Assembly (NCBI RefSeq): GCF_020740795.1
Contig: NC_067282.1
Span: forward strand, 132,427,132 to 132,491,131
Reading direction: 5' to 3'
DNA length: 64,000 nucleotides
DNA from: Apus apus
Taxonomy: Eukaryota > Chordata > Aves > Apodiformes > Apodidae
The position numbers and the translations under genes were made by a program. Positions 12,401-63,646 of the stretch are shown piece after piece. How positions within the stretch are numbered: the stretch's first letter is position 1; each line of letters starts with the position of its first letter. Below the pieces are notes generated by a model, which saw only the letters and a program-made list of their open reading frames with translations, was not told the DNA's origin and did not search any database.

Positions 12401-14110
12401 AGCATCGTTACCTGCCATCATCCAGGGAGCCAGGGTTTCAAAGGAAAAAAACCCAATGGCTCAATTTTAGGTCTCCCTCCTCGCCTTCTTCTCTCTTCCC
12501 CCCCCCCCGAAAAAAAACAAACCACAAAAAACAAAAAACTACACAACTTACGCCGTGACCACCACCGAGCGGGTCACGAAACTCCCCCGAGCAAGCCAGC
12601 TCTTCCCGCCTACAGGAACCGAGCCTCCCCGCAGCCCGTGTCGTCATCCCCCGCAAGCCCCAGCCCTGCCCTTCCCCGCCAGGCGCCGGGCAAGGAGAAC
12701 TTCACCTTCCCCGCCACCGAGGAAGCCCCGACACCGCGGCGGGGCCGCCAAGCCCGCACCCCCCCCGCCCCGCCAAGGCGCGCTCTCCTCTCCCGCCCGA
12801 CGCCCCCCGCGCCGTCACAGCGCCCCGGCGCTGCCACCCCCCGCCCCGCCGGGGGGCACCCAGCCCCCCCGGGCCCTCACCGCACGCCATCCGCCCCGCC
12901 ACGGAGCAGCGGCAGCCGCTGGGCCGGGGCGAGGGGCCCAGCCGCCGGGATCCCGCCGCCCGCCATCCTGCGCTCCCAGCAGAGGCTCCGCCGGGGGTCT
13001 AGACCCGGCCTCCCCACCGCAAGCCTCGTCGCTGGAGCCGGGGCCCAAGGCGGCGGCGACGGCGGCGGCGCCCTCACCTGAAGCGCCGGGAGCTGCGTGC
13101 CTGCCGTGCCCGCCGGCGGCAGAGGAGGGAAAGGGGCTGCCGAGAGGGCGGAAGAGCGCGGAGGAAGGCGAGAGGAGCCCCCGCCGCTGCACCCGCGCCC
13201 CGCCGCGCCGCCCTCCTGCCGCCCCCCGCGCCCTCCTGCCGCCGCCCGCCTCCCCGCCCCGCCTCCTGGCCGCCGCCCAGACGCCTCCCGATTGGCCCGC
13301 CGCGCAGGGCAGGCTCCCGCCCCGCCGCCGCCCATTGGCTGCCCGCGCTGCCAGTCCACGCCGCTTCCTAACCGGGGGCTGGAAGGGGCGGTGGGGGCAA
13401 AGGTGGCGGGCGGTGCGGGAGCGGGTGCGGGAGCGGGGCGGCAAGGGGGGGGGGGGGGGTGGGGCGCGTGCCCGCCAGCTCCCCAGCGGTGCGGTTTAGT
13501 GGGGTCGCGCCCACCCTCCCCACCCCACTCCCCCCCCCCATGGCCGAGCCCCCGGCTCCGGGGAGCACCTCCTGAGGGGGCTGTGGGCGCTGCGGGGTAA
13601 GGGCGCTGCGCCCGGCCGTGCCGCCCCGCGCCTGCCCGGCAGGCGCTGTGCAGGGGTAGGGAGGCGTGATGTCCGTGGTGGGAAAGGCGCGGGCAGTCAG
13701 TGCTGCGGAACGTGGCAGGCAGGGCGGGAGGCGGCTCGGAACCTTGCGCCCGTGTTCCGCTGCCAGCGCGGGGGGCTGCGGGGGAGCAGGGGATTTGGTT
13801 TCCCCGGGCGGAACTTGAGCGAGGTGATAGATCCCGAGAAGTGACAGGGACTTTTTAACGAAGGCTTTTAACTCCGCTCCCGCGGCAGCCCGGCCGTGTA
13901 ACGCAGTGCCCTCTTAACTTCCCGCTGCGGCAGCGCCGGTGCGGCACTGCTCCCGCCGCCGTCTGTCCGCTGCGGGGCCGTCCTGCCGCGGCGGGCAGGG
14001 CAGGACTCGGCGGGCTTGGCTGGAGAGCCAGGCGGCTCAAGGACAGAGACACCTTCAAACGGCGGGGTTACACCTCTGTGCGCAGAGGGACGCGACACTG
14101 CGATGGCACC
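12400..14110 (-). promoter_or_regulatory. PACSIN2: CpG island, likely PACSIN2 promoter and first exon
   Basis: A long GC-rich, CpG-dense block with many GGGCGG-type Sp1 boxes and CCAAT-like ATTGG motifs (13290-13340) in otherwise AT-rich DNA. Read on the minus strand it offers several consensus splice donors: CAG|gtgagg with the exon edge at 13078, GCG|gtgagg at 12881, GGC|gtaagt at 12552 and CAG|gtaacg at 12412. These would be alternative 3' ends of non-coding first exons. Long open frames here on both strands are a by-product of the GC bias: they are proline-, alanine-, glycine- and arginine-rich in every frame. Assigning it to PACSIN2 (an F-BAR membrane-remodelling protein) is inference from synteny; no PACSIN2 coding sequence is in the window. 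Confidence 0.55.
13445..13459. repeat. G15 homopolymer in the CpG island
   Basis: Fifteen consecutive G, then T and four more G. Such a run can form a quadruplex and is a common site of assembly or sequencing error. Confidence 0.9.
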
Positions 14111-22900: not shown

Positions 22901-38314
<15,414 letters not shown>

Positions 38315-39517: not shown

Positions 39518-42125
39518 GGGCTCAAGTTACTTTTGTCAGTCCTCTGGAATATTGTGTTACATCCTTGCCCTTTTCATTTGAGAAAGACAGCCAAGCCTAG
39601 CAAGGTGGGAATGCACAACAAACTGAAGAAGGAGAGAGGACAAACCCTACACCCACAATTAATTCCTACCTCTCTGAAGGGCAGGCTGAAGCCTTCTGTC
39701 AGTAGCAAGCACCCATCCGCTTGCACTCTGCTTTACAAGGGCTCTTTGGTGAGATCCCCTTCACACAGTGTCTCATATTGTGCATCAATGTAATACCAAT
39801 TAAGATGGGGGCAAAGAAACATGAATTGAAGCATATTGTCCTTCATGCATACATAGTCTCGAGCCAAAAGCCTACAGCCCAGCTGACATGGTCAGAACAC
39901 TATAAAACAAACCATGTATTTACCCCATCTCTAAGTAACTGGTGAAGCCCAGCCTCCCAGGATCTAGGCCTGATTATTATACAACTATTAAGCAAGTTAA
40001 TATATATTAATGAGAAAATGATAATAACTGATAAAGTCAAGGGTAGACAGCTCTGGTGAGCAGTTTCAGCGTCGCTGTTGAGTCTTTCTGCAGTTCATTC
40101 CATGAATCAGTTTTACAATTGCAGCCTACTGAATTTTCATAGTTATGTTTCACATAGAACAACTGCAGACAAGTGCTGATTCAGAAGAAAATCTCTTAAA
40201 ACAAAAAACAGATTCTTTGGCACGGGCTTCTCCTAGGAACAAAACCTGCCATGCAAGGGAGTAAAAGAGAGCAAAAAGATATGCAGGGGGAGCAGTAGAG
40301 GGTGTGAAGGCTAGAGGTCTGTCCATTTGTGTGTGCATATACAACACCAGATATGACCAAAACAAAAATAAATCAAAGGGATTCATTTATTTGTACTGAA
40401 GTACGTATGATTCACAATCAGTGACTCACTAGTACCACACAGCATCTTGTTGTGGTTATAAAAGTTCAGGGATTAGTCAGCTTGGAATACAATTGTCCCT
40501 TCAAAGGGAAATGCATTAAATGCTATGATAACATTAACCAAACTCAACGTAAAATTTTTAAAACACCTTAATACGTGTCCTCCCACAACTCGAAGCTATC
40601 CCACTAGTTTTACCAACATCCAACATTATACCCGTTTCTGTTAGCTGACTTCCTGATCTTGCTCCCTACTTACCAATTGTGCCTCACTCCAGCATCCTTA
40701 GTACATAAGCAACAGCTGCCTTCAGGGACTGTGCTTCCAGAAATGTGGCATCAGACAAATGCAGCTGCCTGTGCCTCTGTCTTTATAGAAGCATGTAGCT
40801 GCTGCCTGGCAAACATTAGGAGATCGGCTGCGCTGCCACAAGCAGAGCTACTTTGCCAACACTTACAACACTGCAACCTCATTTCTACCCCGGGATGCAA
40901 CAGCTATCACTGCATCCTTTCTATAGGATTCTTGATGAGACATTGCAACACATGCTACACATCCTATAGCGAGGAACACTGAAAGCCTGCACATACTGAT
41001 CCAGCAAGTGGATTTGTGGTAGCAGGTGGGACTGCTCCATGACTGGCTGTGCTGACTCCCAGACTGCACTGGTTTGATTTCAAAAGCCACAAGACAGCTC
41101 AACAGAAGACTCACCCACAGGAAGGCAAGTTAAAACTAAACCAAAGCTAAAATTCAAGGTAACTTCTACCACAAATAGAAAGATAAATTCTATTATTTTT
41201 TCCTGTTTTGGAAACTTCAGGCCTTATAGGTAGATCCATCCTGTTACAGGAAGACTGAAATTATAGCAACAGGACAGCAGACTGAAAATTATCATTAGTT
41301 TATGCAGACAGTTTGATAAGCTCAGATGATGTTTAACTGGCCTGTAAATAAAGTCTTCTGATTTTGTGTAATTTGATTATTGAAATCCACAAAAAAAGAA
41401 GTAATAAAAAAATAACCTATACTAAGTTGTACCAAATTTTTTTCTTATTTTTAATAATATAATTTTAATACAATATAACGTTTTACAGGAATCCTCTATT
41501 TGGCAATTAGGTGTTCTAGATAACCTGATGAGATGGCACAAGACAACCATGCATTCAAATTTCTGGTCAGCTGGGATCCTTAGCTTTGGTAAACATCATA
41601 GAGGAGCTGTGTACCACACAGCACCAGCCTGCATGTAGTAGGGTAACAGTAAAGTAAGTCAAAGCCTTCAGAAACCACCCGATCCTAGTCAGGAGGCAGA
41701 TGAATAACACAGGCACAGCAGGCCTGAGACTTCCCCAAACACTGCCTTTATGGCCCAGACTGGTGCCAGGGGCAGCAGACGAATCCAAGGTGAGGGCCTC
41801 TTCCCCTGTCACAAATTCATGAGGCGCTGGCGAGATCCAAAAGCATCCTGGTTGCCACTACCAGCGCTGCAGAAACCACCCGTGCTGGTGGCAGACCATC
41901 CTTTCACACTACAAAATACGGATAAGTCAGCGGTGCCGGTGTCTGTGGCACCTGACCTGGCCATTTCTGTTCGCTGCTAGCAGTTGAAAGCGTAACTGCG
42001 GGTCATCACCGAGCTTATTACCGGAAAACCCAGTTTGGGCGATGCAGCTGTGCCATCCGAGGCGAGCGGGAGGCCGGCCTCAGAGACTCCCGAAACACCA
42101 GGGATAAAAGGGAGCCAGCGGAGAG

Positions 42126-42199
42126 CGAAGCAGCCGGGGGGCTGAGCTGCTGGGAAGGAGCAGCCGGGGGGCTGAGCTGCTGGGATGGAGCAGCCGGGG
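42126..42199. repeat. 30-bp tandem repeat, about 2.5 copies
   Basis: The unit agcagccggggggctgagct plus gctgggaagg occurs twice (from 42126 and 42156) with a single difference (gggaagg/gggatgg). A third partial copy, agcagccggggcagc, follows. It lies at the edge of the TTLL1 CpG island. Confidence 0.92.
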
Positions 42200-42642
42200 C
42201 AGCGGCAGGGCCGCCGGATGCCCTGGAAGCCACGCGCGCCTGCCACGCGCTCCCGCAGGGCACGGCAGCGGGCACCGCCGGGCTCAGGCCTCCACCAGCG
42301 CCATGTCGCGACAGCCGCGCGAAGAGGCCGCCCCGTTCCTCCCAGGCACCCTCCGAGAGCCGGCCCGCAGGAGGTAACCGGGCGAGACCACCGCCTCCCC
42401 CCCGCCCCCTCCCCAACTTCCCAGGGAGGCTCACGATGCCACAGATCCCTTCAGCTGTCGCGACACCCCCCAGGGGTAGGGAAGCCGAGCGCCTCCCGCG
42501 GTGCCGGGCGGCTGCAGCCCGCACACGTGTATGTCGGTGCGGGACGACCCACCCGGGGCCCCGCGCTCACCTGCCGGGGCAGGGGCGGCCCCGGCTGCCC
42601 GCTCCGCAGGCCGCTGCCATCGCCCCCCGCCCTTTCCGGCGC

Positions 42643-42655
42643 GTTCCCTAGCAAC
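42643..42655 (-). promoter_or_regulatory. RFX X-box-like motif
   Basis: Minus strand GTTGCTAGGGAAC: two imperfect inverted half sites close to the RFX consensus GTNRCC-(0-3)-RGYAAC. It sits just upstream of the inferred TTLL1 exon 1 donor. RFX factors drive ciliary genes, which fits TTLL1. Confidence 0.6.
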
Positions 42656-42723
42656 CGCCACGCGCCGGGGGCGGGACTTCCGGAGCCGCCGCGGCGGCGG
42701 CGGGAGGGGGGGGGAGGAGCGCT

Positions 42724-42737
42724 GTTGCTATGGAGAC
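42724..42737 (+). promoter_or_regulatory. Second RFX X-box-like motif
   Basis: Plus strand GTTGCTATGGAGAC: half sites GTTGCT and GGAGAC around an AT spacer, very near the canonical X-box GTTGCCATGGNAAC. It lies 68 bp from the first motif in the same island. Confidence 0.62.
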
Positions 42738-42960
42738 GCAGAGCTGCCCCGCCCCGCGGGCGGCCATCTTGTCTGCGAAGCTTCGCTGGGCCTGGGCCTC
42801 TCCCGCCCTTCTCTGTCACCGTCCGCACGCTGCTCGTCTGAGAAGAGGGTCCAGACGCCTGCCCAGCCACCCCGCCATCGTCCACTGGCCTCTTCAGGCC
42901 TGTGCCAGCCCCGTCGTCAGAGAAAAAGTCCCTGACAAGCACCTGATCGTGAGTAAACGG

Positions 42961-45300
42961 AAGCTTGTGGAAGGTCGTCGCGTGACAGAGCCCGCTTGGG
43001 TGTGACCAGAATACCTAAAAAATCCCAGGGTCACTCAGAAACCAAAGCTCACGTCCCTTTTTGAACACATCAGGTGCTAAGAGGTCCACCACCAGATGGC
43101 TGTAGGAATAAATATATATAGATGTAACTTTTTTTTCTACCGATCCTGTTCTGTGCAAATTTTCCCCCAAAAGTATCAACAACAATAATCTACAGTGAAA
43201 AACAAAGTGAGACAAATAGCACCGAATGAGCTATGGTGCCTGTGTAGAAAAAAGCCTGATTTACACATACAAAATTCATTGCAAAATGAGAGATGACGTT
43301 AAAGACACCGGACGGGTTACTGACGTGTTGTGATAGGCTTGATGCAAAACATGAAGGTGTTACACACAGAACTCCAGAGATTGGGAGAGTCTCTGAGGAA
43401 AGAACTAAAAGTCAAATAAGTTACTCATTCTGTAAGAAAAATTACTAAAGAATCGAACCACCAAGAAAGTAGCCGAAATGAGCAGTGTGTTGGTGTACAG
43501 TAAATAACTGATACAAATCTATATTCCCCAAGAGCCTTAATTCCCCAAATAATCTGAGTGTAATAAATATGCTTTACCAGATCATCCTATGGCAATAGGC
43601 TCCATTTCAAGGATGCAACTACAAAGAAACAGTGAAACTTCATGTAACTGGACCTATTAAATATTCCCTAGTTAAACTACGAAAGCGGCCACAAAATGCA
43701 GTCTATCTTCCTTTGGTCACGTGCAGTGGGAATTTCCTGGCACCACAAAACCCCTGGCAGCAGGAGAGAGCAGGGAGCAGCCTTCACAGCCATCCTCCAA
43801 CCAAGAAGGTCTGTCTGCTGTGACAGCTGGCAGCAAGGGAAGTGAACCTGAATCTTCCTGCTATCAATCCTTTTTTTTGTGTCCCTGCATCCATCACACC
43901 TCAGGGGAAAGCTGAAAAAGTACACTTTTTAAATGTGTTCAATAATTCATTAAGGACAGAAGCAGTTGTTTGGGTGTTTTTTTTTTTATGTAAGAGTCTC
44001 TTAGCTTAATGCAGCAATCCTTAATCAAAGTTGTAGTGCCATGGTATAAAAGCTATTGTTTTGCTGTCTCTCTGGAAACTACACCCACAGTATTACATCA
44101 CAGCTGATAATAGATGTTCCCGTTTTTAATATTAATGCATCTCCACTTTGTAACATGATTGTTCCAACGAGAGAAGTGGGGGAGAGCAGCTCAGTGATGC
44201 TTACTGTTACTGTATCAGGAAATGCTGTAGCAACGTCGGTGTGCTATCTTTGTGACAGAAATCACTCCTACGGTGAAATTGGCATCTCTTATTTTCAGCT
44301 GAGTTAAGCAAGACGACCTGTGTGTGCAAAATTAACCCTGTTTTTTTGGGAGCAGAACAGGAACGTTGAAATAATCGGAATGGGTAAAAACAGGGCATGG
44401 TCTCAGCAAGCACTGTTACTCCTGAGGTTAATTTCCCTTTTATGATGTTGTACTTTCGAGGCAATTTCCATCTAGCCTGTTGCACATGTGAACGGTAAAC
44501 ACCGTCCTCGCGGCACAGTCCTTGGCACGGGTTGGCAGATAAGCCTTGCCACGTTCCTTTTACAGAGGAGGAATCCTCATGGATGGAGCTCGGAAGATGA
44601 GGGAAAAACATCCCTGTTACCAGGAGGGTTATGACACGTCGTGCGAAAAGAAACGGTGTGTGTAAGTGTGTATACACAGGCACACACGCACTTTTCTACC
44701 TTTGGAAACGCAGCCGCGAAAGCCTGTCGCCATCCCAGCTCCAGGCGGAGGGCAGTATCTATGCCACTCGTTCTCTTTCTCCTGGTGTTTACCTTCCCTC
44801 ACACAGAGATGAAATCATACTATAAACAGGGCAAAGTCCACCCTCAGGCATGACCCGATAAAGTCTCCTGTTTGACATGACAATAAAGCGTGGAGCAACA
44901 GGGGGTTTTGGTTCTTCAAAGCTCTTCTGCAGCGAGCCGAGCTCTCCAGTGATGGGTGATCCAGCCTGAACCCCCCACCCCGCTGTTATCAACAGCACAA
45001 AAGGAAAACACTGGAAGTCCCGTGACCTCCCTAAACCTTTCGGGCGAGAGGCCAGGAGGGTTTCAGCAGACATCCCTCCCTTTAACCCCTCAGTAACCCT
45101 GCACTGGCTGTGCCGCCAGGGCGTCTCCCGTGCTCCGCACCCAAGCTCTTCCCCAGGTGCCCTGGGGGCAGCTGGGGATGGGTGCGTGTCTCAGTGGCTT
45201 TTGCTGAGCTGAGCAAACGCAAAGCAACACCTGATCCTCCTTGTTCAAAAGCCAACAACGCCACAACATTTCCAACGCTTTAAAGACTATCTTTAAAGGA
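42961..45300. other. Intergenic between the TTLL1 promoter and the BIK CpG island
   Basis: No exon was recognised. A 158-codon open frame on the minus strand (44207-44683) has no family features, no intron and no near homologue I can name, so it is left unannotated. Confidence 0.6.
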
Positions 45301-45485: not shown

Positions 45486-45691
45486 AGGGGCCCGCCGGCT
45501 CTGGTCGCGCCGCTGGCTGCCCAGTGTCCCGTCACGTCCCGTCACCGTGGCGGGGCCATCCCACCGCGGCGGCCGGTGTCCTACCGCCCCTCCACGGGAC
45601 CATCCCGGCCTCACCCCGCTCCCTCCGAGGCGCTTCTCCCGCCGGCAGCGGCCGCCCCGGGCCACCGGCTCCGAGCCTGCGGGGCGGAGCT

Positions 45692-45772
45692 GGGCGCGGA
45701 GCGGTGCGGGGCAGGGCGGTGCGGGGCAGGGCGGTGCGGAGCGGGGCGCGGAGCGGTCCGGGGCGGGGCGGG
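45692..45772. repeat. GC-rich minisatellite in the BIK CpG island
   Basis: Repeated units of about 15 bp (gcggtgcggggcagg with gcggagcggggc variants) in roughly five degenerate copies. The repeat is G-rich on the plus strand. Confidence 0.85.
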
Positions 45773-45926
45773 CGGACAATAGGGGCAGGCTGCGAGTGAC
45801 GCCGCGGCGAGTGGCCGCGCCGGGGCGGGGCAGGGGTCCGGGGACCCCCCTCTCCTGACTCCTGCCTGCGTGCCCGCAGGGCGGCGGTGGCTTCCAGCGC
45901 GGGGCACCGAGAGGAGCCGGGCCGAG

Positions 45927-48900
45927 GTGAGCGGCGGGCTCTCGGCGGGAGAGGGGCGGCGCGGCGGGGAAACCGGCCGCCTTTCGCCGGGCAGACCCAG
46001 ACCGCGGCCCCGGGGCGGTGCGGGGGACTGAGGGCGGGCGGAGGTCCCGGGACCTGCCGCCTCACCTGCGCGCCCGGTCCCGAGGCGGGTGTCCCGGCCC
46101 CCGGGGGTGTCCCGGCACGGCTGCACAGGCAAGCCCGCCCCCCGGCACCTCCACCGGGTCTGGTGCCGCAGCATCGCTGGGCTCCGGAGTGTGTGGGGGG
46201 ATGGATGTCGTTTAAAAACCACGGCGGGCGGGGGTGAACCCGGTGAGCGGATGCGGAGCCGCCGGCTGCAGGCAGCGCCGTGCCCGCGGGCGCTGGGCCG
46301 GGGCGGGAGCGCCGCGCTGCGGAGCCGTCCTGTCCCGGCGGCGCGGCCGCGGGGGCCACGCGTGTGCCCCTCCGGGTGATGCTGCGGGGAGCTGCGTGCT
46401 TTGTACGCGGCGGCTGTCTGCTAAGCAAATGAGGAGCGGAGTACGTGTACTTTCACTCTTAGCGAAGCAGGAAATAAGCCCTCAAAATAAGTCGAAGATG
46501 TGCAGCAAAATGTGCCACCGATAAACATATTGAATGCTCCTGAAGAACCCGCTTGGTATCTGGGTGTGCGCTTACAACAATGCTACTGATAACGGGAATG
46601 ATGTGCAACAGGAGAGCTGGATAAAGAAATCCATACAGCAGTAAATACTCGGTTAAGTCATTTCAGAAGAAGCGATTACAGGAGCGTGGTGAGTTCTGTG
46701 ATTAAGCACGTTTCTAGGTGTTTAAATTACAAAGTGAGTGTTAGCCTGAGTCTGCTTCTTTAGGCTGTAGGATAAAGTTGTGTGTCTAACAAGAAGATAC
46801 AGTGGTCTCCATTACAATTTTCTCTTAACAGCTACATGGACAGTTAGTTTGAGTTAAGTTTGAGTTAATATACTGTGGGTCTGTGGTTGGTTTTGTTTTA
46901 GGGTGGTTTTTTTTTGCCAATTAATGCATGACAGTTGAATGGGAGATAAGACTGAGTATAATGATGAAGAAAATCAGTTTGTCCAAGGTACTTGATCTCT
47001 TCTGGTGTCAAAACATCACCGCTGTAGAGACCCTGTCTTTTTGAAAGGAGAAAGTAAAGAAAATTGCCTGCTTCACCTGGTCTGTAGGTGTCTGTGGTAG
47101 TTCTTTTGAAGGACTTCTGTATCAACAGGCCATTGGCCGTAAGACCATTTAGAGAGGACGAAGGAAATGGGAATGCACTCAGCTCCTGCAGGTAAACAGC
47201 CTGCCAGCCAAAGCCAGAGCTGGTTGGAGCAGGGTACTGACTGTGAGCTTGATCCCACAGTTACCAAAGGGAGTAGTAAAACCCCTCCTCATGCAGTATG
47301 GATCTGGAATGAAACTAGGAAGGCAAATACTGAAATCAAACTGTATATGAGTAAGGGCTACAAATCGACAAAAAGAAAAGGGTTGAAGAACACATTGTGC
47401 TGGAAGAAATACAGTGCTGCATCAGAGCAAGATGACTCTTGTTGTTACACTATAGTGGCACTATTTTTATGGTTACACTACCTGCAGGATGTGTGGAATA
47501 TATCACACCAATGTTAACTTGGTAATTTTATTGTATATAAAAATACCACTAAAATATTGTAGTTGAACTAGATTTTAATTCATAGTATTATTATTACAGT
47601 GTTTGTAACACTGTTACTATTGGCATTTTACCAATACAGGAAGCCTAAGTAAAACTGAGAACAGCGTGGCATTTTAATGCTTTATAGAGATGTGCAGAAC
47701 AAGAGAGACAGGATAAACAGCGAGTTAAATTTGGATTCTTAGACTTACAGTTACACCATACCTGCAAATCCATCAGTTGCTCTCATCTTCCCAATCTGGC
47801 AGCTGTAAGTGGGATCTCACAGGCTCCTGTAGGAAAAAGTCCATCAAAGGTCATGGAAGATGCTGAGTTTTCTGACCACAAGTCCAATAAAGTGTCCCTG
47901 TTAAATGGGACAAGATGCAGGTGCCAGGTGGCAATACCCAACAGCTTGTGTGCTGTGCTGCACAGCACTAAGGGCAGCCAGGGAAGGGAAAATGGCAGCC
48001 CATAGCTATCCCAAATGTGCCAGCTTTTTAAGAATATGAATGATCACCTTTAAAATAACAATATTATTTGGTCTGTTTAAACTATATGACCTTGGTGATC
48101 AGCATCCTTTAATCCTGAATTTAATATCAGGGCATGAATTCGTAATTGCTTGAGGATGCCAGCAGGCTCGTTGCAGGTAATTTTCACCCTTGGAGTGGAT
48201 GGGATGGTAGAACAAGGTCTCTTAAGTACATCAGATTTATCTGTTTTCAATGTCATCGAACAGATGTTAATGTGAGATTGAAATATTCCAAATTTATTAT
48301 GTAACTGTGTTAATGAGCATTGCAGGAACTTTTCTGACTACCAATAACAACTCTTCTAAATGCATTGCTTATTTTAGGAGCTTTCAAAAATAAAAAATCT
48401 AAGATACAAAATTTCAGAATAAATGTGAACAAATAAACATTTTCCATAGCTTCATGGTTCACTTATGGATTAGTGAACTATATACATTGTTGTACTTACC
48501 TCCTGCAACTCGGCCATGCAATTCAAGTAACAATTTAAAACAAATTCTTACTTATTATAAAAGAATCTGACCTTTTGGTGAGACTGAGAAGTGCAAAGGG
48601 CAGAAGATGTTTTGAAAAGGAAATGTAAATGTTAGAGCAGAAGCCTTCTGACTAAATCTAAACCTTAACTCTTTGTGAACAAGCAGAACAAAGGCGACAT
48701 GCCTGAGCTATGTGGTGCTGTCACGAAACAAAAATCTGAGCGTGGCAGAAAAAAATGTTGGGTGGTTTGTTTGTTTTTTTAAACAAAAATGGTTAGTTTC
48801 AGCTTGGTATCAGTATATTTGTATCTTTAGTGTTCTTAGTTCTTCCCATAAAACTTTTTGGGAATGTAATGTCTTGCTTTTGAAAAACAGCAGAACTTTT

Positions 48901-54596: not shown

Positions 54597-54733
54597 AATA
54601 AGATGTCTCAAACAAGGAGAAGCCCCAGGCATTTTGTCCCCTCTGGCTACCCCAATGGAGCACCAGAAGAGGAAACCTACAGTAACCTCCGAACAATTCC
54701 AGACACCACACAGCAAATGGAGTTTAATATCAG
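54597..54733 (+). CDS. BIK: BIK exon 2, with the start codon at 54603
   Basis: The acceptor is gactcgttgcag|AATAAGATG, giving a 6-nt leader before the ATG. The donor is AATATCAG|gtatca. It encodes 43 codons beginning MSQTRRSPRHFVPSGYPNG, plus two bases of a serine codon. The ATG shortly after the acceptor mirrors the mammalian gene, whose exon 1 is non-coding. The donor is only moderately strong. Confidence 0.78.
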
Positions 54734-57700
54734 GTATCATGCTGCATTAATACTCCTTCTGTCTTCCCCATCCTTCCCCTCCTCTTCCCCCCCCAGTGCA
54801 AACCCTCAGACTTCTCAGACGACTCTGCTAAGCCAAATAATCATTGAATTATTTGGAGTGATACTGGAAATTGAATAGATGCAAGTGTAGATAACCTGTA
54901 GTGATTAATACTGACCATGCAAGATTATGCTGCATTAAATGTCTGCAAGTTTGTATCCTGCACAGGGACACAGATGTGGCTTCATTAGAAATCCACCTGT
55001 TATAGCAAGCAGCTGAGGAAGCCATTTTTACATAATTCTCTAGGCGCCTCTCACAACAAACTGATAGTGCTGCTTTGGGTTTTTCTTAATCCCATACATA
55101 CATTTTTTCCAGTTCAAGAGTCAGGGCCTGCCTTTCCCCGTCTGTGAAAATTCCTTTCTGTGGGGTTTTTTTTTCTGTTGTTGTTGGACTGACGAAACCA
55201 AGCCTAAGTTTTTTTAAGCAGATCTCTAGACTTAAGCTCTTAAGCCCACTTAGTATTCAGCAGATCTCATCAACAGATCTCAGCAGAAATACAAGTTTAA
55301 ATACAAATGTGTAGTCATTTGTTTTTCTACCAAAAAAACCCACCAAACCTGAGTGTCTAAGAGAAGCTAAATCTAATTTAAAATTTTAATCAGGAAAGTG
55401 TACCCAGTTTTTGACATCAGCCATGTAGTTCAAGGTTCTGCACACCCCCAGGACCTCCCTAAGAGCTTTAGGATTTGGTCAGTTCATACCCTGGCACCAC
55501 CCATTAGCTGGAGACCTGCACTGCATTGTGGAAATCATTGGAGTAAATCTGTTGGATGAAAAAGCCAGCAGTTCTGTAAGAGGAAATATTTTGAAAGGTA
55601 TGATAGGAGGGCTGGGACAATGTGGGGGGAAAAAACCCCAATGAGCCAGATTTCTGTTGCCTTTTATGAAGAAATAAGACACCTAAAAAAACAAAATTTT
55701 TTTTCTGAAGTGCCAAATATGCAGCTTTTTATTGAAAGCAACAAAGCACTTCTGTACACACATAAATATGGGTGTATGATGCCTAATCAACAAAACCGTA
55801 AGTAACAGGAAAAAAAAAACATTAACATTTTGCTTTTACCTGCCCAGCTTAGTCCAACTGTTAGGGGAGTAACTGTGCCTGACATTTGCAGAGTGCTCTT
55901 CAGAGAATTTCTGTTGCAGTATTTTCCTCTAACATGCCCATCCTCATACACCTTACAGCTCAGCTGTCCAGGTTGGCCATCAGCTTGCTCTGATAGGGGA
56001 TGAACTGAACAGGACATACCACAGGAAGTTTGGAGATACACTGCTCCACCTGGCACACCAGTAAGTTACCTTCCTGGCACTGTCACATCTTTTTAGAAAC
56101 CATGTTAGATGGATAAATTGTAATGTTAGATAAACAACAGTATTTCTGTACAACAAGTAAAAAAATGTTACTGCTACTACTGCTGCTTCACACAGAACCT
56201 CAAACAATCAAAACTGATACTGCGTCTTGTAGCTTTATAATGTGAATTGTCTCCATGGACTACAGCCATTTAGTCAAAAGATGTACATAGTTCCTTGGTA
56301 CTTAAATTCACAGTAGCCCTATAGTTTTCTAGGATAAACAGTGTCCTTAAACACAAGTGAAAGATGAGAAGTCTTCAGCCTAGTTAAGGGTGATGTTTTG
56401 GGGATTAACATGTTACTGCATGTCAAATAACGCACCCACAATAAAAGAAAACGTGGCCAGGCTACTTTGGATTGCCTCTTATCTGCTGTGAGTTGACAGG
56501 GTTTTCATGGATTGTTATTAACTGCAGGTTAACTGACATGCACTCATGGCCTGAACCCCCAAGCGCAGCTCTACCTCTTCTCTCCCTGCTTCAGGGAGAG
56601 GACAGTCACATATTGCAGACTTACAGAGCATACAGTTCAGTTACAGCTGCACTCCTGGATGCAGCATAGAGTCATACAACTTCTACCTCAGGAAAGCTGA
56701 ATTCATGCTGCACAAGGACCCTGGGGGATTGCTGTGTCACTCCTGTATTGCTGCCTCAAACTCCGATTCACTAGACATCAACTGCTCCCATTGGGTTGTG
56801 CTGTTCCAAGTTTGAAACAAGAGCAAAGGCACAAAACTGTTGTTCAGGAGGTCTGCTGCATGTTTCCTTGTGCGATGTTAGTGATCAATTCATTTTGAAA
56901 CCAAATTACCCTTACCACTCAAAGCTCTACTAAGTTGCCAGGTCTTAGTCCTAAATATTTAGATAGAAGTACACGTAGACTTTCAGGAAATAACACTAGA
57001 GTTTTGGGTTTATTTTTGGAGTTTTCTAAACCTGGGTATTTTATTTGCCAATTTTTAGAATAAATTTTCTATCCCCATGCTTATTTTTTTATTTTTTAAT
57101 TTTTTTCTTTTTTCTTTCTTTAAATCATCAGCATTGCTATCAGTGTTTTCCAGATATGGAATATTATTAAAAGTGTTATAAGAAGCTCTGGAAATATTTT
57201 GAACAATAACTGGACAAAGAGGATCATTGGTTATGGAAGCTGGGTATGCTCTTTCCCTTTTCTCCCACCTTTTCATTGTCAAGTAGGTAGGAGCAACAGT
57301 TTACTCCCATGTATGTATCAACGAGTAAAGCATATAATGCAGCTTCAGGTTTGGGTTTATTCCTTCATTTGTTGGTGTCCTCCCATTGCTCCTTTTTTTT
57401 TCTTTTTAGGCTAAAATTTCTCTGTTATAGACAGAGTATGCCAAATGTCTGCAAACAGCTGCCCAAGTCCCACACAGCTCCCAGGGGTTCCATGCAGAGG
57501 GAAGATTTCTCCCACTGTAAGAAGCTGCAAGGGTCTGCTCCTGGCAGAGTTTTACCCAGTGGTCACCCCCAAGAAGAGAGGATTCTTTAGAGGCTGGATG
57601 TGATGCTGCCACTGCAGCAGTCACAGTACTCACAAGCAAACCTAGATCCCAAAGCTCATTTCTAGAGGACAGGACTGTATTCTCCATTTCACACTAACCT

Positions 57701-57886
57701 CACACGCAGGGGTTCTTGTTGGCTTTTCTGCACCATCTTTTTGCTGCCTGTTATTTCTAATTACCTTCCCTTCTCTTCCCACAGATTTGCAGGCTTCCTT
57801 TCAGGTGTATCTGCCAGAAGCTGGTGCCTGCAGCCTTGCTTGTTGTTGCCTTTTGGTGGGCCATGAATTATGGACTGCAGAATTAA
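54603..57886 (+). CDS. BIK: BH3-only apoptosis inducer, BIK orthologue (four coding exons)
   Basis: BIK is a BH3-only protein of the ER and mitochondrial outer membrane that binds anti-apoptotic BCL2 proteins. Coding exons 54603-54733, 55959-56060, 57132-57243 and 57785-57886 have GT-AG borders and compatible phases (2, 2, 0). They give 447 nt, 148 codons plus TAA; human BIK has 160 residues. Residues 53-61 read LALIGDELN, aligning with LACIGDEMD of mammalian BIK and including the invariant G57-D58. A spacer ends …GYGSW (human …PGSW). The C-terminus is a membrane anchor from about L128 to Y144 (LVPAALLVVAFWWAMNY), ending seven codons beyond the WW pair. Position and orientation (between TTLL1 and MCAT, plus strand) match human BIK. 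The N-terminal 45 residues show no obvious similarity to mammalian BIK. Expression is not shown by the sequence. Confidence 0.87.
54734..55958 (+). other. BIK: BIK intron 2
   Basis: GT-AG intron. No repeat or additional exon was recognised. Joining across it preserves phase. Confidence 0.75.
55959..56060 (+). CDS. BIK: BIK exon 3 (BH3 exon)
   Basis: The acceptor is cataccttacag|CTCAGC and the donor GCACACCA|gtaagt, a near-perfect match. The first base completes AGC (Ser44). It encodes SAVQVGHQLALIGDELNRTY and then 14 further residues ending LLHLAH. An in-frame stop lies upstream at 55930, so the frame cannot extend leftward without this acceptor. Confidence 0.88.
56061..57131 (+). other. BIK: BIK intron 3
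   Basis: GT-AG intron. Its 3' end is an unusually long T-rich tract (about 57083-57125), an ideal polypyrimidine tract, followed by aaatcatcag. Confidence 0.75.
57132..57243 (+). CDS. BIK: BIK exon 4
   Basis: The acceptor is aaatcatcag|CATTGC and the donor GGAAGCTGG|gtatgc. It completes His78 and adds 37 codons, starting IAISVFQIWNIIKSV and ending RIIGYGSW. An amphipathic helix followed by a GSW turn corresponds to the segment between BH3 and the membrane anchor in mammalian BIK. Confidence 0.82.
57244..57784 (+). other. BIK: BIK intron 4
   Basis: GT-AG intron ending in a strong polypyrimidine tract, attaccttcccttctcttcccacag. Short open frames within it on both strands look random. Confidence 0.78.
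57785..57886 (+). CDS. BIK: BIK exon 5 (membrane anchor and stop)
   Basis: The acceptor is ttctcttcccacag|ATTTGC, phase 0. It encodes 33 residues: a basic, cysteine-containing lead-in (ICRLPFRCICQK), then a hydrophobic segment LVPAALLVVAFWWAMNY, then GLQN and TAA. Two later AGs (57796 and 57804 region) are possible acceptors, but only the upstream strong site gives a phase-compatible path with the full lead-in. Confidence 0.84.
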   Translation: MCRLPFRCICQKLVPAALLVVAFWWAMNYGLQN

Positions 57887-63223: not shown

Positions 63224-63646
63224 TTAGGTCTCTGCTGCTTCCTCATCTTCCAGGGCATCTACATGGTTATACTGTTTCCAGGCCTTTAAATTACATTTTT
63301 TGAGAATGGCTCCCAGCTGCTTCCCGGGTCCCACTTCATACGTGTAAGGAAATTCTGTTCCTTGCTTTCTTTCATAGACAGAATGCATGGTCTGTTCCCA
63401 CATAACAGGTGAAACCACCTGCTTCACTAACAGCTTCTGAATGTGCTTTGAATGCATGTACTTTTTGCCATCAACATTGGAATAGACACAGACCAGTGGT
63501 TTCTGAATCTCAATCGATTTTAGGACTTCAGCCAAAGGCTCTACTGCTGGTTCCATAAGTCTGGTATGAAAAGCCCCACTGACCGGAAGCATTTTTGTAC
63601 GTGTAAAATAGTATTTCCGGGCATTCTCCTGCAAAAACTCCAAAGC
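63224..63646 (-). CDS. MCAT: MCAT last coding exon
   Basis: The acceptor is tctcttttatag|GCTTTGGAG. It encodes 140 residues beginning ALEFLQENARKYYFTRTKML and ending …EEAAET, with a TGA stop at 63224-63226. It includes the catalytic histidine. Confidence 0.97.
   Translation of the reverse strand, partial: ALEFLQENARKYYFTRTKMLPVSGAFHTRLMEPAVEPLAEVLKSIEIQKPLVCVYSNVDGKKYMHSKHIQKLLVKQVVSPVMWEQTMHSVYERKQGTEFPYTYEVGPGKQLGAILKKCNLKAWKQYNHVDALEDEEAAET

Follow-up and report, generated by a model that had tools for sequence, protein, structure and literature searches.

We report that a 64,000-nucleotide stretch of the Apus apus genome (contig NC_067282.1, positions 132,427,132 to 132,491,131; hereafter the window) almost certainly contains a real, intact and conserved bird ortholog of BIK (BCL2 interacting killer), a tail-anchored BH3-only protein encoded by four small exons. 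An earlier note on this DNA had proposed the same identity, which is borne out by a match to the Pfam family PF12201, by a match to the Bik chain of the PDB entry 5tzp, by the relatives found in databases and by the position between TTLL1 and MCAT. Apus apus, like many birds, possesses an intact BIK; the avian cell-death network thus does not lack this killer. The case also shows why a search based on the human protein could call BIK absent, and its practical value lies in the correction of bird annotation. In the following, database proteins are referred to by our P numbers.

The gene comprises four coding exons on the + strand (Table 1), separated by three introns that are all of GT-AG type and lie in phases 2, 2 and 0. 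Its coding parts (54603-54733, 55959-56060, 57132-57243 and 57785-57886) join into a coding sequence of 447 nt, i.e. 148 codons plus the stop that ends at 57886. All three junctions that had been proposed (54733/55959, 56060/57132 and 57243/57785) are present and yield the in-frame 148-codon product, and both the BH3 motif and the GSW that closes exon 3 can be read directly in the translation at the expected places. Similarly, the proposed tail anchor agrees with the hydrophobic character of exon 4 and with a helix predicted there in the model of a swift ortholog. The coordinates need one qualification, in that 54597 is the acceptor edge of exon 1 and the start codon lies at 54603.

In a crude consensus score, the donors fall in the 89th to 97th percentile of all + strand GT and the acceptors in the 77th to 99.7th percentile of + strand AG. 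Since these values are ordinary, homology carries the case for the gene. Indeed, when relatives were aligned to the window with tblastn (listed queries P0001-P0015), most gave four separate pieces whose ends coincide with the exon edges or lie no more than about 20 nt away, while a few exon-1 pieces extend further upstream or 19 nt beyond the donor. Two variants of the exon plan deserve mention. Skipping of exon 2 would keep the frame and remove BH3, given its length of 102 nt and its phase of 2/2; exon 2, and BH3 with it, is missing from the model in a turtle record (P0047, Carettochelys isoform X3). Furthermore, 4 of 31 aligned records (P0010, P0025, P0027 and P0028) lack the 4 residues that open exon 3, and use of the candidate second acceptor (Table 1), which is possible in Apus apus, would remove these residues.

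In Pfam, PF12201 (Bcl2-interacting killer) is the sole family to match the product at E <= 10, with 26.2 bits against a cut-off of 25 (E 8.4e-6) over residues 37-138. This match covers the features shared with mammalian BIK (human Q13323), namely BH3, linker and tail anchor. The BCL2 core family PF00452 is not listed at E <= 10, which together with the LxxxGD-type BH3 motif characterizes the protein as BH3-only, faint traces of BH1 or BH2 being possible. Among PDB entries, the Bik chain of 5tzp ranks first, with identity at 21 of 25 residues, and BAK chains come next, from E 3.2e-5; the letters of that Bik chain are those given as Gallus gallus Bik E9JEC5 in PMC5691656. The chicken protein (E9JEC5; P0025, NCBI 'BCL2 interacting killer isoform X2') shares with the window protein 21 of 25 residues of the BH3 25-mer, the same tail and 74% identity over the full length. 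It differs in its length of 144 residues, without the four at the start of exon 3, and in a BH3 phenylalanine in place of the leucine at residue 60.

The chimney swift Chaetura pelagica (Apodiformes) has the closest relative, a protein likewise of 148 residues with 96% identity over the full length (E 3.4e-95). Of 54 candidates in the protein search, 40 have E <= 1; judging from their names they are mostly bird proteins, with a turtle and a crocodile among them. A profile search gave 60 matches at E <= 10 (58 at E <= 1e-3), adding turtles, tuatara and four marsupials, the latter at 31-36% identity. A second profile search gave 65 (59 at E <= 1e-3) and added two snakes, a frog and fish, several of its matches bearing the name bcl-2-interacting killer. 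The second profile already included three marsupial proteins and one catfish protein, which had reached E 7.2 in the first profile search; the fish matches are therefore partly built in.

The LAxIGD pattern of BH3 occurs in 53 of the 60 proteins from the first profile search, one of which (P0059) is a BCL2-core fragment. The seven without it are five exon-1-only models, the exon-skipping turtle isoform and P0048, which has LALMGDEFN. For closer comparison the window product was aligned with 37 of these 60 proteins (38 rows); not among them were the 'lgn' and 'ena' proteins, the majority of the fragments, fusions and odd models, the marsupial P0054 and the catfish protein, 23 in all. The BIK family of Pfam matches 35 of the 38 rows at E <= 1 (best 2.2e-10).

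The position of the gene points in the same direction. Both neighbours, TTLL1 and MCAT, were located on the opposite strand of the window, so that BIK occupies the proposed slot antisense to both. The human order, TTLL1-BIK-MCAT-TSPO, has the same two neighbours. A Pelecanus crispus record named 'translocator protein isoform X2' (P0045) consists of BIK exons 1-2 followed by TSPO, either as a read-through transcript or as an annotation fusion, and fits TSPO as the next + strand gene.

Several observations weigh against the identification. The PF12201 score lies just 1.2 bits above the cut-off. Among the 65 matches of the second profile search there is no placental BIK, and the link to placental BIK consequently rests on the Pfam profile and on position. 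Exon 3 is weakly conserved beyond birds. The canarypox protein CNP058 has no detectable affinity for the Bik BH3 peptide, according to PMC5691656, which means that partners differ. Finally, AlphaFold2 modelled the swift ortholog with low confidence (mean predicted local distance difference test score, pLDDT, 63.2; predicted template modelling score 0.22), with pLDDT below 50 over residues 1-33, and when this model was compared with the PDB by Foldseek, a single match appeared at E 7 and none reached E <= 0.001. Given this poor model and the lack of a Foldseek match, no claim made here rests on the fold.

How BIK arose is a separate matter, and one reading of it is compatible with the identity of the gene. 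BIK could be what is left of a BAK/BAX-like multidomain gene after most of the part between its BH3 exon and its tail exon was lost; we regard this as a tentative proposition that is rather more likely to be wrong than right. In its specific form, which we hold to be equally doubtful, sauropsid BIK would retain the exon plan of a BAK-like ancestor: the BH3 exon first, next an exon whose end, followed by the phase-0 intron, marks the former BH2 tryptophan, and then the tail exon. It would have become BH3-only by loss of the helices in between. If true, this would show how one BH3-only protein arose, and the BIK of birds and reptiles, whose BH3 is nearly BAK-like, would be a readable link that is lost in mammalian BIK. 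The human BH3 core (LALRLACIGDEM, PMC9171138) appears by eye less BAK-like. The likeness to BAK is strongest in the BH3 exon: 30 residues align, and the profile score of 94 is matched by none of 100 shuffles, the best of which attains 32. For BCL2 and BCL-XL, too, the score in this exon lies above all 100 shuffled values, which is not so for BAX and BOK. Beyond BH3, the protein may hold a remnant of BH2 or of BH1.

We favour the BH2 version, in which the end of BH2 with its old intron would survive at GSW. A profile of the 38 BIK rows matches BAK chains twice and in collinear order: BIK 43-78 falls on BH3, and BIK 78-120 falls on the segment that closes with the GGW of BH2, with GSW set on GGW; the break between the two is the exon 2/3 junction of BIK. 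Members of the BCL2 family have their last intron behind the tryptophan of the BH2 GGW, and sponge Bak still has it, as stated in PMC8998228. This rule would fit W115 of BIK, which all 38 rows share and which in the window is immediately followed by a phase-0 intron, although the homology of GSW and GGW has weak support and is disputed by the BH1 placements. When exon 3 plus three residues was aligned alone, W115 fell on the GGW tryptophan in four of five members (BAK, BAX, BCL2 and BOK). However, the second BAK stretch is weak, with independent E-values of 130-280 in four BAK alignments, and the exon-3 scores are reached by 8, 55, 16, 53 and 16 of 100 shuffles for BAK, BAX, BCL2, BCL-XL and BOK, respectively. 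For BAK, 34 of 400 shuffles score as high, 26 of 400 put tryptophan on tryptophan and 4 of 400 do both. Moreover, a single-sequence search sets the same region on BH1 of BAK; the alignments with BCL-XL and, when the tail is included, with BAX also place it on BH1, while BCL2 with the tail aligns elsewhere. The snake proteins also lack the GSW triplet, which over the 38 rows varies more in its first two residues (G in 36, S in 26) than in its tryptophan.

The alternative version, a trace of BH1, draws on an alignment of exons 3 and 4 to BAX 104-143 (BH1 onward) whose score is reached by 0 of 100 plain and 0 of 300 within-exon shuffles, and on W105, which is present in 37 of 38 rows. Against it, this BAX score is the strongest of 10 exon-3/tail comparisons, and of 300 within-exon shuffles, 26 do at least as well as the corresponding score for BAK and 31 as that for BCL-XL. 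On the alignments, each placement would speak for a multidomain ancestor; the two exclude each other, and the model of the swift protein, poor as it is, suggests no BCL2-like fold and has no PDB match. An origin of BIK from BAK is not stated in the titles and abstract openings that we searched, a search outside which the works of Aouacheria and colleagues lie.

The resemblance to BAK could alternatively mean that the locus is a BAK paralogue, or another BH3-only gene of BIM or BMF type, rather than BIK, a reading that we consider extremely improbable. It would account for the BAK-like BH3 exon with its PDB matches to BAK chains, and for the Pfam BIM family, which matches 26 of the 38 rows at E <= 1 (best 0.0022). 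Yet the BCL2 core family is found in 1 of 38 rows only (E 0.04), the PF12201 match spans BH3, linker and tail, and the gene occupies the BIK slot. The window protein also differs from BAK in being shorter, in lacking the BCL2 core in Pfam and in giving no sign of a BCL2 fold, a weak test with such a model.

Hardly more credible is a decaying pseudogene or an annotation accident, i.e. a frame open by chance that makes no working protein. Some splice sites do score modestly, and some database models are intron read-throughs or fusions (P0037, P0045), but length and exon plan are equal in many birds, and 11 alignment columns do not vary among the 38 rows, which range from birds to marsupials. The 28 bird rows are on average 81.1% identical to the window (lowest value 73.9%), with exons 1 to 4 at 79.9, 79.8, 80.8 and 84.7% and the BH3 core at 86.0%. 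The BH3 exon had been expected to be conserved above background; within birds it is no more so than the other exons, and it stands out only at greater distance. The corresponding values for exons 1 to 4 are 63, 67, 50 and 59% in the six turtle, crocodile and tuatara rows, and 40, 60, 24 and 41% in three of the four marsupials, whose BH3 core reaches 80%.

A pseudogene is also at odds with transcription in relatives, since in PMC7142900 chicken BIK was measured in liver and spleen of hens by reverse transcription quantitative PCR (RT-qPCR). The reverse primer of that study fits our spliced coding sequence best at offset 226, where it spans the exon 2/3 junction (233) and has 5 mismatches, compared with 6 where it fits the genomic DNA best; this difference is small because the primer was designed for chicken, and it is the junction-spanning position that carries weight. 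In addition, two full-length records lie on short contigs, P0020 (151 residues, nearly the chicken sequence, 14 member sequences) on one of 1614 bases and P0026 (146 residues) on one of 1107 bases. As both are shorter than the 3.3-kb unspliced gene here, they are probably complementary DNA, which would indicate transcription in these relatives. A chance open reading frame was set aside in view of the full-length match to the chimney swift and the 40 proteins of the first search.

Proteins of BIK type are tail-anchored BH3-only proteins whose helix occupies the groove of pro-survival BCL2 proteins and frees BAK and BAX. The 148-residue product of the window is accordingly predicted to comprise a disordered N-terminus, the BH3 helix, a linker and a C-terminal membrane anchor. 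The tail would be inserted most likely in the endoplasmic reticulum or the outer mitochondrial membrane, and the BH3 helix would fill the groove of avian pro-survival BCL2 proteins. Once these are occupied, BAK and BAX would be freed and apoptosis could start. In PMC5691656, the chicken Bik BH3 peptide corresponds to residues 43-67 of UniProt E9JEC5, and its complex with FPV039, a viral BCL2 protein of fowlpox (FPV039:Bik), is 5TZP.

The earlier note had called the gene cryptic to similarity searches. We examined this with tblastn, using a short word and a search space set to 1.2 Gb, and the claim holds for some queries and fails for others. Human BIK is too distant and gives no match at E <= 10, whereas human BAK finds the BH3 exon at 0.001. 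The marsupial queries mostly miss the gene as well: P0051 finds the BH3 exon only, and P0052 the BH3 exon and the last exon at E 0.5. A snake protein (P0061) finds the BH3 exon and, at E 10, the last exon, a frog protein (P0063) the BH3 exon at 0.006 and the catfish protein (P0060) the BH3 exon at 7.7; two fish proteins (P0068, P0075) give no match. By contrast, all four exons are found by chicken P0025 (about 1e-9 or better), turtle P0041 (1e-5 or better) and tuatara P0044 (9e-4 or better), and with crocodile P0036 three exons reach 2.5e-6 or better, while exon 3 is found at 0.17.

Nor is the gene new to birds. Bird BIK is already known: the chicken gene is named, its BH3 peptide has been crystallised and its expression in hens has been published. 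In the 40 database rows (each a cluster that displays one name), two carry the name BIK (chicken and burrowing owl, NCBI/UniProt), 33 are hypothetical or uncharacterized and five are nameless. With just two of 40 rows so named, annotation can be corrected. The marsupial relatives P0051-P0054 (Sarcophilus, Phascolarctos, Macrotis and Trichosurus) are likewise unnamed in the rows shown. Six records (P0037, P0040 and P0055-P0058) consist of exon 1 continuing into intron 1, and bird BIK is in this sense often mis-modelled. Among the papers listed by our literature search there was no claim that BIK is absent in birds, nor work on avian BIK evolution, and the words 'birds' and 'aves' do not occur in PMC8998228.

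Table 1. Features of the BIK locus and its surroundings in the window.
Feature	Position	Strand	Remarks
BIK exon 1	54597..54733	+	ATG at 54603; residues 1-43 plus 2 nt; N-terminal part, predicted disordered; based on splice sites, frame and tblastn of bird relatives
BIK exon 2	55959..56060	+	102 nt, phase 2/2; BH3 motif LALIGDELN at residues 53-61
BIK exon 3	57132..57243	+	linker region; ends in GSW (W115) with a phase-0 intron directly behind
Candidate second acceptor of exon 3	57144	+	12 nt downstream of the first; weak, 64th percentile
BIK exon 4	57785..57886	+	hydrophobic tail anchor KLVPAALLVVAFWWAMNYGLQN and stop; helix 121-145 predicted in the swift protein model
TTLL1 coding exons, upstream neighbour	24548..38299	-	8 tblastn pieces, 93-100% identity
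MCAT 3' coding end in open frame, downstream neighbour	63227..63646	-	PDB 2c2n, E 1e-59; gene runs off the window
CpG island with positive GC skew over and beyond it	45501..46500	.	GC 0.73-0.81, CpG observed/expected 0.92-0.97; candidate BIK promoter

An Rfam scan of the window gave no match at gathering thresholds. The window contains three CpG islands, at 12501-14000, 42001-43000 and 45501-46500, and between about 45.5 and 48 kb the GC skew has positive values. For the island at 12.5-14 kb, a query with the N-terminal part of PACSIN2 gave no match. The island at 42-43 kb may be the promoter of TTLL1, and the one at 45501-46500 may hold the promoter or a non-coding first exon of BIK.

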